A stretch of DNA of 56,880 nt from Falsigemmobacter faecalis (lineage in GTDB: Bacteria; Pseudomonadota; Alphaproteobacteria; Rhodobacterales; Rhodobacteraceae). The DNA lies in assembly GCF_003863335.1 (NCBI RefSeq), contig NZ_RRAZ01000023.1:1-56880 (forward strand), written 5' to 3'. The notes below the pieces were generated by a model. The model saw nothing but the letters and a program-made list of their open reading frames with translations. It did not search any database and was not told the DNA's origin. The position numbers were made by a program, and so were the translations under genes. Every line of letters starts with the position of its first letter. The stretch's first letter is position 1. This document shows positions 20,216 through 26,268 of the stretch, piece by piece.

Positions 20216-21616
20216 ATGAGCCAGAGTGCCTTGACGATCTTTGATGCGCAGCGCCGCCTGGTGCCTGAGCGCCGCCTGAGCTTTGATGCCCCCGCACGGG
20301 CGCAGGCGCTTGAGGCGCTCAGGCGTGCAGTCCTGGACCATGAGGGGCAGATCATTGCGGCGCTGGCCGAGGATTTCGGCAAGCCTGAGGCTGAGGTGCT
20401 GCTCACGGAGATCCTGCCGGTGCTCAGCGAGATCCGTCTGGCGCAGCGCAAGGTGAAATCCTGGGCGCGGGACCGTCGGGTCGGGCCGACCCTCACGAGC
20501 TTTGGCACCTCCGCCCGGATCCGGCGTGAGCCGCGCGGGGTCTGTCTGATCATCGCGCCCTGGAACTACCCGCTGAACCTTGCGCTGGGGCCGCTGGTCT
20601 CCTGTCTGGCGGCGGGCAACAGCGCGGTGGTGAAACCCTCTGAGCTGACGCCCGCCACCTCAGGGGTGATCGCGAAGATCATCGCCGCGGCCTTTGATCC
20701 TGATCTGGTGGCGGTGATTGAGGGCGGGGTGGAGACGTCCACCGAACTGCTGGCGCTGCCCTTTGATCATATCTTCTTCACCGGCTCGCCCGAGGTGGGC
20801 CGTATCGTCATGACGGCAGCGGCAAAGCATCTGAGCACGGTCACGCTGGAACTTGGCGGCAAATCCCCGGTCATTGTGGGGCCAGGGGCGGATCTTGCGC
20901 AGGCTGCAGACTGGATCACCTTTGGCAAGCTGACCAATTCCGGGCAGACCTGCATCGCCCCCGACCATCTCTTTGTGCATGAGGCTGTGCGCGAGGCGTT
21001 CCTTCCGCTGTTGCGCGCGCGTATGGCCCGGGCGCTGGAGGGGGCACCCATGGCCCGCATCGTCTCGCCCCGCCATGCCGCGCGACTGGAGAGCCTGTTG
21101 CAGGAGGCAGAGGAGGGGGGCGCAAAGGTGCTGCGCCAGGGCAGCAGCGCGGGGACGCAGATGGCGCCTGCCCTGGTGAGTGCCCTGACCCCGCAGATGC
21201 GCCTTGAGCAGGAAGAGATCTTCGGCCCGATCCTGCCGGTCATCCCCTTCCGTGATCCTGCGGCGGTGCTGGCGCGCATCAATGCCCGCCCGAAGCCCCT
21301 GGCGCTTTATGTCTTTGAAAAGGATCGCGACTTCATCGATCAGGTCATCACCAGCACCTCCTCGGGCGGGGTGGGGGTGAACCTGACGGTGCTGCATTAC
21401 AGCCATGAGGGGCTGCCCTTCGGGGGGGTGAACCACTCGGGCCATGGGGCCGCGCATGGCGAATGGGGCTTTCTCGCCTTCTCGCACCAGCGGGCGATTT
21501 TGCAAAACCGCTTCTCGCCGCTGAGGATGATCTTTCCGCCCTGGACGGGGCAGAGGCTGCGGCTGATCCGCTGGGCAAAGCGACTGATCGGCGGCGGGGC
21601 TGCGACGAAGTCATAA
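20216..21616 (+). CDS. Aldehyde dehydrogenase, ALDH3-like, catalytically intact
   Basis: NAD(P)-dependent oxidation of an aldehyde to its acid. The 466-residue protein has all three core catalytic residues: Asn in IAPWNYPL, Glu in TLELGGKSP and Cys in NSGQTCIAPDH. The NSGQTCIAPD version and the short length place it in the ALDH3/coniferyl-aldehyde type group. It is first in a three-gene unit with deoC (19 bases later) and the ALDH16-type gene. Acetaldehyde from DeoC is a possible substrate, but that is inference from position. Confidence 0.92.
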   Translation: MSQSALTIFDAQRRLVPERRLSFDAPARAQALEALRRAVLDHEGQIIAALAEDFGKPEAEVLLTEILPVLSEIRLAQRKVKSWARDRRVGPTLTSFGTSARIRREPRGVCLIIAPWNYPLNLALGPLVSCLAAGNSAVVKPSELTPATSGVIAKIIAAAFDPDLVAVIEGGVETSTELLALPFDHIFFTGSPEVGRIVMTAAAKHLSTVTLELGGKSPVIVGPGADLAQAADWITFGKLTNSGQTCIAPDHLFVHEAVREAFLPLLRARMARALEGAPMARIVSPRHAARLESLLQEAEEGGAKVLRQGSSAGTQMAPALVSALTPQMRLEQEEIFGPILPVIPFRDPAAVLARINARPKPLALYVFEKDRDFIDQVITSTSSGGVGVNLTVLHYSHEGLPFGGVNHSGHGAAHGEWGFLAFSHQRAILQNRFSPLRMIFPPWTGQRLRLIRWAKRLIGGGAATKS

Positions 21617-21635: not shown

Positions 21636-22577
21636 ATGGCCGAGCGCAACCAGGGAATGGCCTTTGAGCCGTCACTTTTTCTTTCGCGCGAGATCAACCG
21701 CCCGGCGGCCGGGCGCGCGGGTGCGGCGATCCCATCGCGCCGCGCGCTGAAGGGCCTTCATCAGGCGGCCTGGCTTGTGAATGCGGTGCGCTGCCTGGAT
21801 CTGACGACCCTGGCGGGGGATGATACCGCAGGCCGGGTGCAGCGCCTTTGTGCCAAGGCGCGTGACCCCCTCGGCCCGGACCTCTCTGAGGCGCTGGGGG
21901 TTGCCGTGACGGTGGGGGCGGTCTGTGTCTTTCCCACCATGGTCCCCCATGCGGTGAAGGCGCTGGAGGGCTCGGGCATTCCGGTGGCCTCGGTCGCGAC
22001 GGGCTTTCCGGCGGGGCTGACGCCCTTGCCGCTGCGGCTGGCCGAGATCCGCTATGCGGTGGATCAGGGCGCGGCAGAGATCGATATCGTCATCACCCGC
22101 GAACTGGCGCTGACCGGCAACTGGGCGGCGCTCTACGACGAGATCGCACAGATGCGCGCGGCCTGCGGCGCGGCCCATCTGAAGGTCATCCTGGCAACCG
22201 GGGATCTGCGCTCTCTCACATCGGTCTATCACTCCTCTATGGTGGCGATGCAGGCGGGGGCGGATTTCATTAAAACCTCAACCGGTAAAGAAGAGGCCAA
22301 TGCCACCCTGCCGGTTTCGCTGGTCATGCTGCGGGCGATCAGGGATTACCAGGCGCAGACCGGGCAGATCGTCGGTTTCAAGCCTGCGGGCGGGCTGCGC
22401 ACGGCCAAAGATGCGCTGAACTGGCAGGTGCTGATGAAGGAAGAACTGGGCCTGCCCTGGCTGCGGCCCGATCTTTTCCGCATCGGAGCAAGCTCGCTTC
22501 TGGCCGATATAGAGCGCCAGCTTTCTCATTATGTGACAGGTCGTTACGCGGCCTTTCAGCACCATCAACCGGCCTGA
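21636..22577 (+). CDS. deoC: Deoxyribose-phosphate aldolase
   Basis: DeoC splits 2-deoxyribose 5-phosphate into glyceraldehyde 3-phosphate and acetaldehyde in deoxynucleoside breakdown. The 313-residue protein is of the longer form with an extra N-terminal segment. It shows CLDLTTLAGDDT, the ATGFPAG loop, EIDIVI, a KVILATGDL strand and the Schiff-base Lys213 in DFIKTSTGK, then VGFKPAGGLRT. The start follows GGGGGGAGAGC. It lies between two aldehyde dehydrogenase genes and no phosphorylase or deaminase of the deo pathway is nearby. Confidence 0.96.
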   Translation: MAERNQGMAFEPSLFLSREINRPAAGRAGAAIPSRRALKGLHQAAWLVNAVRCLDLTTLAGDDTAGRVQRLCAKARDPLGPDLSEALGVAVTVGAVCVFPTMVPHAVKALEGSGIPVASVATGFPAGLTPLPLRLAEIRYAVDQGAAEIDIVITRELALTGNWAALYDEIAQMRAACGAAHLKVILATGDLRSLTSVYHSSMVAMQAGADFIKTSTGKEEANATLPVSLVMLRAIRDYQAQTGQIVGFKPAGGLRTAKDALNWQVLMKEELGLPWLRPDLFRIGASSLLADIERQLSHYVTGRYAAFQHHQPA

Positions 22578-22586
22578 GGGGGCGCT

Positions 22587-24866
22587 ATGACGGGGATCTC
22601 TGAGATCATGGCGAAGATGGACTATGGCTCTGCGCGCGAAAGCCTTGCTGAGGGGACGGCATGGATCGAAAAGCGCGCCATTGCGCGTCATTTCATCGGT
22701 GGCGACTTTCCTGAAGGGGGCGATCTGCGCCCGGTCCTGAACCCCGCCACCACCCGGGAGATCGCCCGGGTTCCCCTGGCGCGCGCGGCTGAGGTTTCCG
22801 CAGCCCTTGCGGCAGCCCGGCAGGCTCAGCCGCTGTGGGAAGCGCTGGGCTGTGAGGCGCGGGCCCGCCATCTTTACGCCCTGGCGCGGGGGCTGCAAAA
22901 ACGCGAGCGTCTTTTTGCCGAGGTCGAAGTGCTGAACGGCGGCAGACCGATGCGTGAGCTGCGCGAGGGCGATATCCCTCTGGCAGCCCGGTGTTTTTAT
23001 CATCACGCCGGGTGGGCCATGCAGCGCGATGAGGCTTTTCCGACCCTGGTGCCCCATGGCATCTGCGCGGGGCTTATCCCCTGGCACGCGCCATTGTTGA
23101 CGGCGGTCCGGAAAATCGCGCCCGCGCTTGCGGCGGGGAGTGTGGTGGTGCTGAAACCCTCTCATCTGACGCCGCTGAGCGCGGTTCTGCTGGCGGAACT
23201 GACGCTGGAAATCGGCTTGCCGCCCGGCGTTCTGACCATCCTGCAGGGGGATGATGAGACGGGCGCCCTGCTCGTGGCTCAGCCCGGGGTGCGCATGGTG
23301 TCTGTCACGGGATCTGTCCCCACAGGCCGTAAAATCCGGGAGGCGACCGCAGGCCAGGGCAAGGCGGTGACGCTGTCGGTGAGCGGGACATCGACTTTTA
23401 TCGTGCTCGGGGATGCTGATCCCGATGCCGCCGTGGAGGGCGTGGTGGATGGCCTTTGGCTCAATCAGGGCGGGATGGGCTGCACCGGGGCCCGCCTGCT
23501 GGTTCAGGAAGGGCTGGCCGGGACCTTCACCGCGCGGCTGAAGGCGCGGATGGCGCGGCTGGTGACGGGCGATCCTTTGGAGAAAGGCACCGATCTGGGC
23601 GCGCTGGCCTCTGAGGCCTGTTGCACCAGGGCGCGTGACCAGATTGCCCGCGCGACAGCGGCGGGGGCCGATCTGCATCAGGGCAGCGCCCCTGAGGGGA
23701 ACTTCCTGGCACCAGGCCTGATCACAGGGGCCGCTGCGCAGGGCTGCTCTGGCCCGATCGCTGTTCTGACGACCTTCCGCACCGCAGATGAGGCCGTGCA
23801 GCTTGCCAGCCACAGCCGCAGGGCACAATCCGCCTCAATCTGGAGCGAAAATATCACCCGCGCCACGGATCTTGCGCTGCGGGTAAAGGCGGCAGTGGTC
23901 TGGGTGAATTGCACCCACCAGCTTGATGCGGGCGCGGCTTTCGATGGCCCCGGCCCGGCCCCCGAAGGGGGGCGCCGGGGAATGGAGACCTGGCTGACGC
24001 ATCCGTCCCCACCCGGCGCTCTGCGTGAAGAGCAGCCCTCTCACTGGTTGCCAGATCCGGTCGCACCCCCGCAGGGGCAGGCGCTTGATATGACCCTCAG
24101 GCATTGGATCGGAGGGAAATTTACGCGCGCAGACAATGGGTTGTCGGCGGCGATCGGGGGCGGCCCGCCGGTTGCCTCGGGCAGTCGCAAAGATATCCGC
24201 AACGCAGTTGAGGCGGCGGTGAAGGCCGCTGCCTGGTCTGCCATGAGCGGCCATCAGCGGGCACAGGTGCTCTGGTTCTTCGCGGAGAACCTGCAGCAGC
24301 GGCAGGCGGAATTTGCGGAGCTGACCTCCGATCAGGAAGTCAGGGCTGCCCTCAGCCGCATCCTGGCTGCCGCCTCTGCCGCGGATAAAGCTGCAGGCGC
24401 GGTTCGCGACACGAAGCCGGGGTTTCTTACCCTGGAGCGGGCAGAGCCGCAGGGCGTCCTGGCGATCCTCTGTCCGCCCGAGGCACCCCTTCTGGGGCTG
24501 ATCACCATGGTCGCCCCGGCGCTGGCAATGGGGAACCGCGTGATCTGCGTGCCCTCTGAAACCGCGCCGCATGTGGGGGCAAAACTGGCGCAGGTCTTTG
24601 CCGTTTCGGATCTGCCTGCGGGGGCGCTGAACATCGTGACCGGCCCGCATCTGCCGCTGTCAGAGGTGCTGGCCCTGCATGAAGAGGTCAGCGCGCTTTG
24701 GTATTGCGGCACCGCCGCCGGAAGCGCCCGTGTTGAAACGCTCGCCGCCGCAGGCCTGAAGCCGGTCGTCACCGATGGGGGTCACCCCGCCTTCTGGTCC
24801 GCACCCGCAGATCTGATGCGAAGGGCCAGCCGGACCCGAACGATCTGGCTGCCCTTCGGCGCTTAA
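22587..24866 (+). CDS. ALDH16-type double aldehyde dehydrogenase, probable pseudoenzyme
   Basis: The 759-residue protein has one full ALDH domain (about residues 30-480) and a second, incomplete ALDH domain (about 500-759). This is the architecture of the ALDH16 family, which is often next to deoC in Rhodobacterales. All three canonical catalytic residues of the first domain are changed. The oxyanion Asn of PWNFP is His167 (IPWHAP), the general base Glu of the LELGG motif is Ser264 (TLSVSG), and the nucleophile Cys is Gly298 (NQGGMGC), leaving only the following Cys299. The second domain stops before its own catalytic motifs. Reading frame and codon use look normal, so it is probably expressed. 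Its stop overlaps the fmt stop on the other strand by four bases. Confidence 0.88.
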
Positions 24867-25770: not shown

Positions 25771-26268
25771 TTACCTCCGGTTCAGCTTGGCCGCTTTCCC
25801 AAGCAGCATCTTCCGCTTCAACGGGCTCAGGCGGTCAAAATACAGCTTACCCTGCAGGTGATCGATCTGATGCTGCACCGAGGTGGCCCAGAGATGCACA
25901 AAATCGCGCTCCTCCACCTCACCTTTTTCGTTCAGAAACCGCACCGTCACCGCACGGGGACGCGAGATCACCGCCGCAACACCCGGCAGATTGGGGCTCG
26001 CTTCCTCATGCTCGCGCATCTGGCCCGAGGCATGCAGCACCTCCGGATTGGCCATCAGAACGGCCTGACCGCGCTCGTCTGAGCAGTCAACGACCGCCAG
26101 CTGCATCATCACCCCGATCTGCGGACCGGCCAGACCGACGCCCGGCATGGCATCCATGGTCTCAACCATATCGGCCCAGATGGCGCGGATCTCATCGGTG
26201 ATCTCCGTCACCGGCGCAGCGGCGGTTTTCAGGCGTTTATCGGGATAGGGCAGAAAGGGGCGGAGCAT
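25771..26268 (-). CDS. Peptide deformylase homologue lacking metal-ligand Cys and catalytic Glu
   Basis: The 165-residue protein keeps the deformylase fold and motif 1 ([10 protein letters not shown]). Motif 2, EGCLS, is EASPN here, so the metal-binding Cys is Ser91. Motif 3, HExxH, reads HQIDH (133-137), so the catalytic Glu is Gln134. Both His are kept. By family knowledge it should not work as a deformylase. It sits between the second deformylase gene (10-base gap) and fmt (5-base gap). The frame is intact, and it may be a regulatory or binding protein. Confidence 0.9.

Follow-up and report, generated by a model that had tools for sequence, protein, structure and literature searches.

A putative ALDH16 pseudoenzyme behind deoC in Falsigemmobacter faecalis and the recurrent loss of catalytic residues from ALDH16 proteins of related bacteria

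The window, i.e., the whole stretch of 56,880 nt that was analyzed, is from the single draft genome of Falsigemmobacter faecalis (G000), which consists of 103 contigs. It has a gene for an ALDH16-type protein at positions 22587–24866 on the plus strand. The gene encodes 759 aa, begins with ATG and has no internal stops, and the intact frame described in the original prediction stands. The protein is one chain that consists of a complete N-terminal ALDH domain and a C-terminal ALDH-like domain that is natively non-catalytic (approximately residues 501–759, positions 24087–24863, plus strand). This is the architecture of ALDH16 proteins. The protein is also placed inside the ALDH16 family on trees, in agreement with the family membership first proposed for it. 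No second ALDH16 was seen in the window genome; the other ALDH matches there are ordinary single-domain proteins, and the Cys motif is absent from the genome.

Immediately upstream is deoC (positions 21636–22577, plus strand), which encodes a deoxyribose-phosphate aldolase according to NCBIfam and ends 9 bp before the start of the ALDH16 gene. What we take to be the catalytic motifs of DeoC are intact. An ALDH3-like aldehyde dehydrogenase gene precedes deoC (positions 20216–21616, plus strand). Its product carries the Asn/Glu/Cys motifs in the form of APWN, LELGG and GQTC, as expected of an active enzyme; the ALDH3 class name is presumptive and follows the original prediction. Downstream of the ALDH16 gene are fmt and three def genes on the opposite strand, followed by patB (plus strand) and ccrM (minus strand). 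All gene names in the window other than deoC are our presumed assignments from sequence. The third tandem peptide deformylase gene (positions 25771–26268, minus strand) reads EASPNLPG for EGCLS and HQIDH for HExDH, which we take to be the metal-binding and catalytic motifs of this enzyme and which the two neighboring def genes keep. Gemmobacter nectariphilus (G395) shows the altered motifs as well, and another related species, G394, has a copy with 91.5% identity. A second gene with the features of a conserved pseudoenzyme is therefore present about 1 kb from the ALDH16 gene.

Three catalytic residues are replaced in the first domain of the ALDH16 protein. By alignment, the oxyanion Asn is His at codon 167 (positions 23085–23087), the general base Glu is Ser at codon 264 (positions 23376–23378) and the nucleophile Cys is Gly at codon 298 (positions 23478–23480), all on the plus strand. 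These residues are found in IPWHAP, TLSVSG and NQGGMGC, respectively. The protein was aligned with bacterial ALDH16 proteins and with solved structures (PDB 6mvr and 6mvu); the three catalytic columns are gap-free and the window residues are H/S/G. PDB entries 6mvr, 6mvs, 6mvt and 6mvu presumably all represent the ALDH16 of Loktanella. The title of 6mvu is 'bacterial ALDH16 active site mutant C295A', and because the mutant Ala aligns with Gly298, the position of the nucleophile is independently identified. Asn, Glu and Cys (N/E/C) are present at the three positions in 111 of 113 aligned rows, the exceptions being the window protein and that of G394. N/E/C is found in 110 of 110 distinct relatives, which confirms that all three residues have been lost from the window protein.

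The loop at residues 295–299 is the sole region of the window structure model, apart from the N-terminal tail, with a pLDDT below 50. The only Cys nearby is Cys299. It is the second Cys of the family, with C in 110 of 110 relatives, and was rejected as a relocated nucleophile. Positions 167 and 264 are without Asn or Glu, and refilling of the active site by other residues was also rejected.

There are further changes beyond those in the original prediction. The Glu/Asp of the family at codon 193 is His (Glu193 to His, positions 23163–23165), and the EIF of EIFGP is GCS (codons 386–388, positions 23742–23750), i.e., Glu386 is Gly and Phe388 is Ser; both are on the plus strand and were determined by alignment. 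We take positions 193, 386 and 388 to be the NAD-contacting residues E195 (a ribose contact), E399 and F401 in ALDH2 numbering. Lys190, Gly242 and Ser243 are retained in the alignment. Judged by its sequence, the window protein has neither the Asn/Glu/Cys triad nor the full set of NAD-binding residues expected of an active bacterial ALDH16. A conserved catalytic motif is gone from a protein that is otherwise intact and under selection (see below), which is characteristic of a pseudoenzyme, and we infer that this ALDH16 has no enzymatic activity.

A second species carries an orthologue that is also dead, the term being used here for copies in which at least the Asn and Cys are gone. Five genomes represent the genus of the window; three have an N/E/C ALDH16 (G234, G395 and G396) and two a dead one (G000 and G394). 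G394 has the whole gene block of the window. Its ALDH16 is open throughout its length, is 63% identical to the G000 copy and has Gln, Ser and a deletion at positions 167, 264 and 298. It is on a long branch and is short of 60 residues relative to the window protein, all of them lost in-frame. Ser264 is common to both species, so the general base was most simply lost before they split. With a single draft genome in many contigs, a sequencing or assembly artefact at the three codons might be suspected, but G394 has its own dead orthologue that shares Ser264, and many other active-site residues are changed as well. An error of this type, which had been named as a possible objection, is thus excluded in practice, and an artefact has next to no probability.

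The order deoC-ALDH16-fmt-def-def-def-patB-ccrM is also found in G. nectariphilus (G395), with an N/E/C copy and no ALDH3 before deoC. Since the gene order is common to both, the two ALDH16 genes are positional orthologues, and the G. nectariphilus enzyme is apparently active. Trees place the dead pair in different positions. In the ALDH16 tree, a quick tree with long branches, the pair is beside the N/E/C copies L039 and L040 with an SH-aLRT of 96; an 8-species FastTree has it beside G234 instead, and the codon-model fit is 5.4 lnL better when it is placed with G395/G396 than when it is beside G234. The deoC tree conflicts with the ALDH16 tree. Here G000 and G394 are weakly grouped with a trio of dead genomes from another genus, that of G297 (support for the join 88/48), near Paracoccus and not with G395/G396. 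This placement does not sit easily with simple vertical descent.

The family sample comprises 394 genomes from 393 genera, approximately one per genus, and dead copies in unsampled species are missed. The window protein matches 345 of the 394 genomes at 1e-60. A degenerate catalytic-Cys motif matches 317 genomes of the sample, and every one of these is also in the set of 345; each match is taken as ALDH16 by list comparison and not one by one, and as the screen consists of the Cys motif only, copies that keep the Cys and are without Asn or Glu (such as those of G779 and G781) are missed. Of the remaining 28 genomes, 16 were read as N/E/C, 4 are dead and 8 were set aside as being without ALDH16, as none of their matches to the C-terminal domain is better than those of ordinary ALDHs (best E 1.7e-17 to 3.7e-25). 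A 17th locus that was read (G147) is a contig-end fragment and was dropped from the 16. Dead copies are thus present in 4 of 337 genomes with ALDH16 (G000, G029, G046 and G297). A scan of the phylum matched 47 of 398 genomes, and the 30 loci read are all N/E/C; a scan of genome contigs with the window protein as the sole query found no relative.

In the genus of G297 the ALDH16 is dead in 3 of 3 genomes, with Asp, Arg and a deletion at positions 167, 264 and 298, and in that of G029 it is dead in 1 of 3 (Arg, Thr and Gly). The frame of the G029 copy opens after a stop just before the MEYG segment, so that the first residues are missing or the start has moved. The genus of G046 has 18 genomes, 16 with a match: 6 are dead, 2 have lost the Asn motif only and 8 are N/E/C. 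The dead copies read A/R/P (G046 and G785), D/S/P (G786), P/E/deleted (G791), Q/A/deleted (G778) and G/E/S (G780). Altogether 12 genomes from four genera lack at least the Asn and Cys, and G791 and G780 keep the Glu. In the two partial copies (G779 and G781, loci L340 and L341) PWN is changed to PAQ and the Glu and Cys are kept (Q/E/C), which may represent an intermediate stage. G783, from the same genus, and Sedimentimonas flavescens L083 have identical deoC genes.

The original prediction was of an inactive bacterial ALDH16; the loss is real, but the window protein is not a single odd member, as dead copies are found in several lineages of the family. On the sequences compared, this recurrence in related bacteria is the unexpected part of the finding. 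Parsimony gives 5 losses on the deoC tree and 4 on the ALDH16 tree; a further tree with a midpoint root and long branches was left out of the counting. The data point to at least four to five losses, and these counts are uncertain, with long branches meeting in the ALDH16 tree. The replacement residues and deletions differ between the dead lineages, which suggests that there were more losses than this and that they were probably mostly separate.

A pairwise comparison (NG86) of the ALDH16 genes of G000 and G394 gives a dN of 0.27, a dS of 1.05 and a dN/dS of 0.26. The same ratio is 0.12 in ALDH3, 0.14 in deoC, 0.10 in fmt and 0.03–0.20 in the other eight neighbors, and the 11 neighbors compared are 82–98% identical vs. 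the 63% of ALDH16. Region 394–480 of ALDH16 has a dN/dS of 0.51. Accelerated protein evolution of this type, together with the 60 residues missing from G394 and the stop before the MEYG segment in G029, is in keeping with a slow decay, in which the arrival of ALDH3 in the gene run, for example, made ALDH16 dispensable and left an ageing pseudogene still without a stop. However, both tips have dN/dS values far lower than 1. In a branch codon model of 8 species with the pair beside G234, the values are 0.117 for the dead tips, 0.087 for the background and 0.55 for the stem; the fit is worse by 147 lnL with the tips fixed at 1, and by 20 and 34 lnL with each tip fixed separately. With the pair beside G395/G396 the tips are at 0.122 and the stem at 0.54, and tips fixed at 1 are worse by 146 lnL. 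There is no clear difference between the dead tips and the background (1.2 lnL). The stem and background values are rough because dS is near saturation across the outgroups, and the stem estimate is loose: values of 0.3–2 are within 1.3 lnL of the best, 0.2 is 3.3 worse and a stem equal to the background is 11 worse. Rapid protein change during the loss of catalysis, followed by renewed constraint, would be expected to produce such a pattern.

Also at odds with slow decay is that neither G000 nor G394 has a stop or frameshift in ALDH16 despite a dS of about 1, and that both keep a purine-rich Shine-Dalgarno-like sequence ahead of the start codon. In a neutral simulation (2000 runs) the frame is open in at most 1.2% of runs at 0.3–0.5 substitutions per site and in up to 3.4% at 0.2. 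Because Ser264 is shared by both species, selection acted in a lineage in which the general base was most simply gone before the species split. The G297 trio, with 735 aa in each copy and no indel, has dN/dS values of 0.13–0.22. In the light of these properties slow decay is an unlikely explanation.

Comparable dead pairs have dN/dS values of 0.13–0.26 overall, including 0.235 for G046/G785 and 0.21 for G791/G778, which also have no indel. Dead G780 gives 0.34 and 0.31 with its less degraded relatives G779 and G793, and the partial pair G779/G781 gives 0.36, with bootstrap values that reach 0.54, so constraint is weaker in this group. Four pairs of active ALDH16 genes have values of 0.06–0.15; a fifth pair, L324/L325, is saturated and gives no ratio. 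The dead copies are at about two to three times the values of active pairs, and their constraint is therefore relaxed. G029 has no comparable dead relative. By these ratios, the dead genes found outside the genus of the window are under purifying selection in the three groups with comparable dead relatives. The dN/dS comparison across related species, with values well below 1 in dead pairs, bears out the proposal that a function is retained at the protein level.

Linkage to deoC is constant in the loci read. Every dead copy has deoC upstream, and so do all members of three further sets of complete ALDH16 loci (80 of 80, 30 of 30 and 16 of 16). In one set of dead loci that was measured the genes overlap or are at most 12 bases apart; the distance is 9 bases in G000 and G394 and approximately 110 in G029. 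The DeoC catalytic motifs are intact beside all dead copies; G029 reads GFKAAGG for GFKPAGG. In the deoC tree, three of the lineages whose ALDH16 is dead have long branches: the stem of G000/G394 measures 0.36, that of the G297 trio 0.6 and the end branch of G029 1.01, against a median end branch of 0.12. With the catalytic motifs of DeoC intact, this may reflect co-evolution or a relaxed use of the pathway. A fusion of deoC and ALDH16 was not found in one locus set read for both genes (19 loci counted, all N/E/C with deoC; L192 is G394 itself, was partly read and was left out). Loci L187–L191 of this set, chosen because their open frames are long, carry deoC in a different frame, and fusion was rejected as evidence of a complex.

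ALDH3 is a different type of neighbor. It forms one tight gene run with deoC and ALDH16 in G000 and G394 and has its N/E/C motifs, and dead ALDH16 might be a structural or allosteric subunit of this active enzyme, as in pairs of active and inactive paralogues. Such a role would leave the recurrence unexplained, however, and the association is restricted: among ten relatives compared with G000, only G394 has ALDH3 beside deoC, and the 9 other loci are without it. No ALDH3 match of >35% identity is present in the 6-kb windows around the dead ALDH16 of G297, G046 and G029, and ALDH3 is beside deoC in 0 of 80 named loci at 1e-60, all of them N/E/C and some with short flanks. A subunit of ALDH3 is an improbable explanation in view of these data. 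ALDH3 was likewise rejected as a general replacement for ALDH16, and the ALDH3 neighbor on which the original prediction drew does not hold as a general pattern. Homologues of the ALDH3-like gene are present in 53 of 394 family genomes at 1e-80, that of the window included. They are located elsewhere in relatives, e.g., on another contig in G234 (67% identity), so it is possible that ALDH3 came to its place beside deoC by relocation in the ancestor that G000 and G394 share.

A total of 211 positions are near-invariant in 149 N/E/C sequences, and these were checked in 8 dead representatives with 5000 permutations. All 8 keep 52 of the 211 positions (6.7 expected, permutation maximum 16) and all 8 have lost 10 of them (0.03 expected, permutation maximum 2), i.e., H136, Q162, N167, F168, W175, K268, F292, V297, C298 and F388. 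These shared losses and retentions reveal that loss is focused around the catalytic pocket and that a common core is kept. A similar result might be produced if the old pocket had been turned to another reaction or to the sensing of a ligand by means of new residues, e.g., the Arg at 264 that is present in both the G046 and G297 clades. But the replacements given above for each dead lineage, from H/S/G to G/E/S, differ, and the nucleophile loop is deleted in several lineages and has a low prediction confidence in that of the window. This does not resemble one new shared active site, and reuse of the pocket is a doubtful explanation.

All 8 dead representatives retain Trp26 and, in the N-terminal tail, Tyr13. 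Tyr13 is in a segment at residues 4–19 (positions 22596–22643, plus strand). Residues 10–14 of the window model have a pLDDT under 50, and structural alignments of the model to the crystals begin at residue 15–16. This tail, conserved but with little order, is a candidate site for docking. In the C-terminal domain, family-invariant residues are preferentially kept in G000, G394, G780 and the partial G779/G781. A general preference for keeping this domain was rejected; it fails in G297, G046, G786, G791 and G029.

The explanation that is somewhat favored is that the window ALDH16 is a pseudoenzyme derived from an active, deoC-linked ALDH16, with a retained non-catalytic role that is tied to DeoC. 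In the window lineage, the three catalytic residues and several NAD contacts would have disappeared, accompanied by rapid change of the protein on the stem, after which purifying selection would again have held what remained. The retained job may be to bind DeoC, or to take part in an aldehyde-handling assembly around DeoC, as a scaffold or regulator. As the conversions recurred, always behind an intact deoC, this job is most likely non-catalytic and one that active ALDH16 would also perform with DeoC. In the window lineage, aldehyde oxidation may have passed to the active ALDH3-type dehydrogenase encoded in this run of genes. The loss, synteny, recurrence, linkage and selection are seen in the sequences, whereas it is our inference that ALDH16 binds DeoC, that it acts as a scaffold or regulator and that ALDH3 replaced it in aldehyde oxidation. 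Counting against this explanation, G394 has lost 60 residues on a long branch, and adjacency can persist without a physical complex. A bolder proposal, and a tentative one, is that the main role of ALDH16 in bacteria is to bind DeoC as a scaffold or regulator, with the dehydrogenase activity dispensable, that the Tyr13 tail (MDYGPAPE-like) docks the partner and that lineages repeatedly drop catalysis but retain the DeoC-related role.

A comparison can be made with known ALDH16 proteins. Human ALDH16A1 is presumably of a distant lineage and not in an operon with deoC. One published description presents it as a pseudoenzyme without any triad residue that acts by protein binding, with an interaction with HPRT1 suggested and exact roles that are not fully understood (PMC10650815). 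Another description reports that the catalytic Cys is missing from human ALDH16A1 and gives Loktanella as the source of the active bacterial ALDH16 (PMC8160307). The window protein is like human ALDH16A1, as described, in that the whole catalytic triad is gone. Its inactive state is likely separate from the vertebrate loss, since the bacterial relatives around it are N/E/C. The crystals of active bacterial ALDH16 have N/E/C (Ala in the 6mvu mutant) and, in 6mvs, NAD, whereas the window protein is without all three residues and several of the expected NAD contacts. The dead copies in the genera of G297, G046 and G029 are like the window protein in that they are behind an intact deoC, have lost Asn and Cys and have a long open frame; unlike it, they have other replacements or deletions and no ALDH3 beside them in G297, G046 and G029. 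No report of a catalytically dead bacterial ALDH16 was found in the literature searched, the scope of which mostly excluded subscription papers.

The ALDH16 fold has, on these sequences, lost catalysis several times in bacteria, in a two-gene unit with an obvious candidate partner, DeoC. Given the recurrent losses, this candidate partner and the N/E/C sister species, the role of ALDH16 without catalysis is testable in simple organisms, and a graded series is present for comparison, i.e., intact, Asn lost only, dead, and dead with a deletion. If ALDH16 is indeed a scaffold or regulator for DeoC, there would be a parallel to the vertebrate protein ALDH16A1, for which a link to an enzyme of nucleotide salvage has been suggested.
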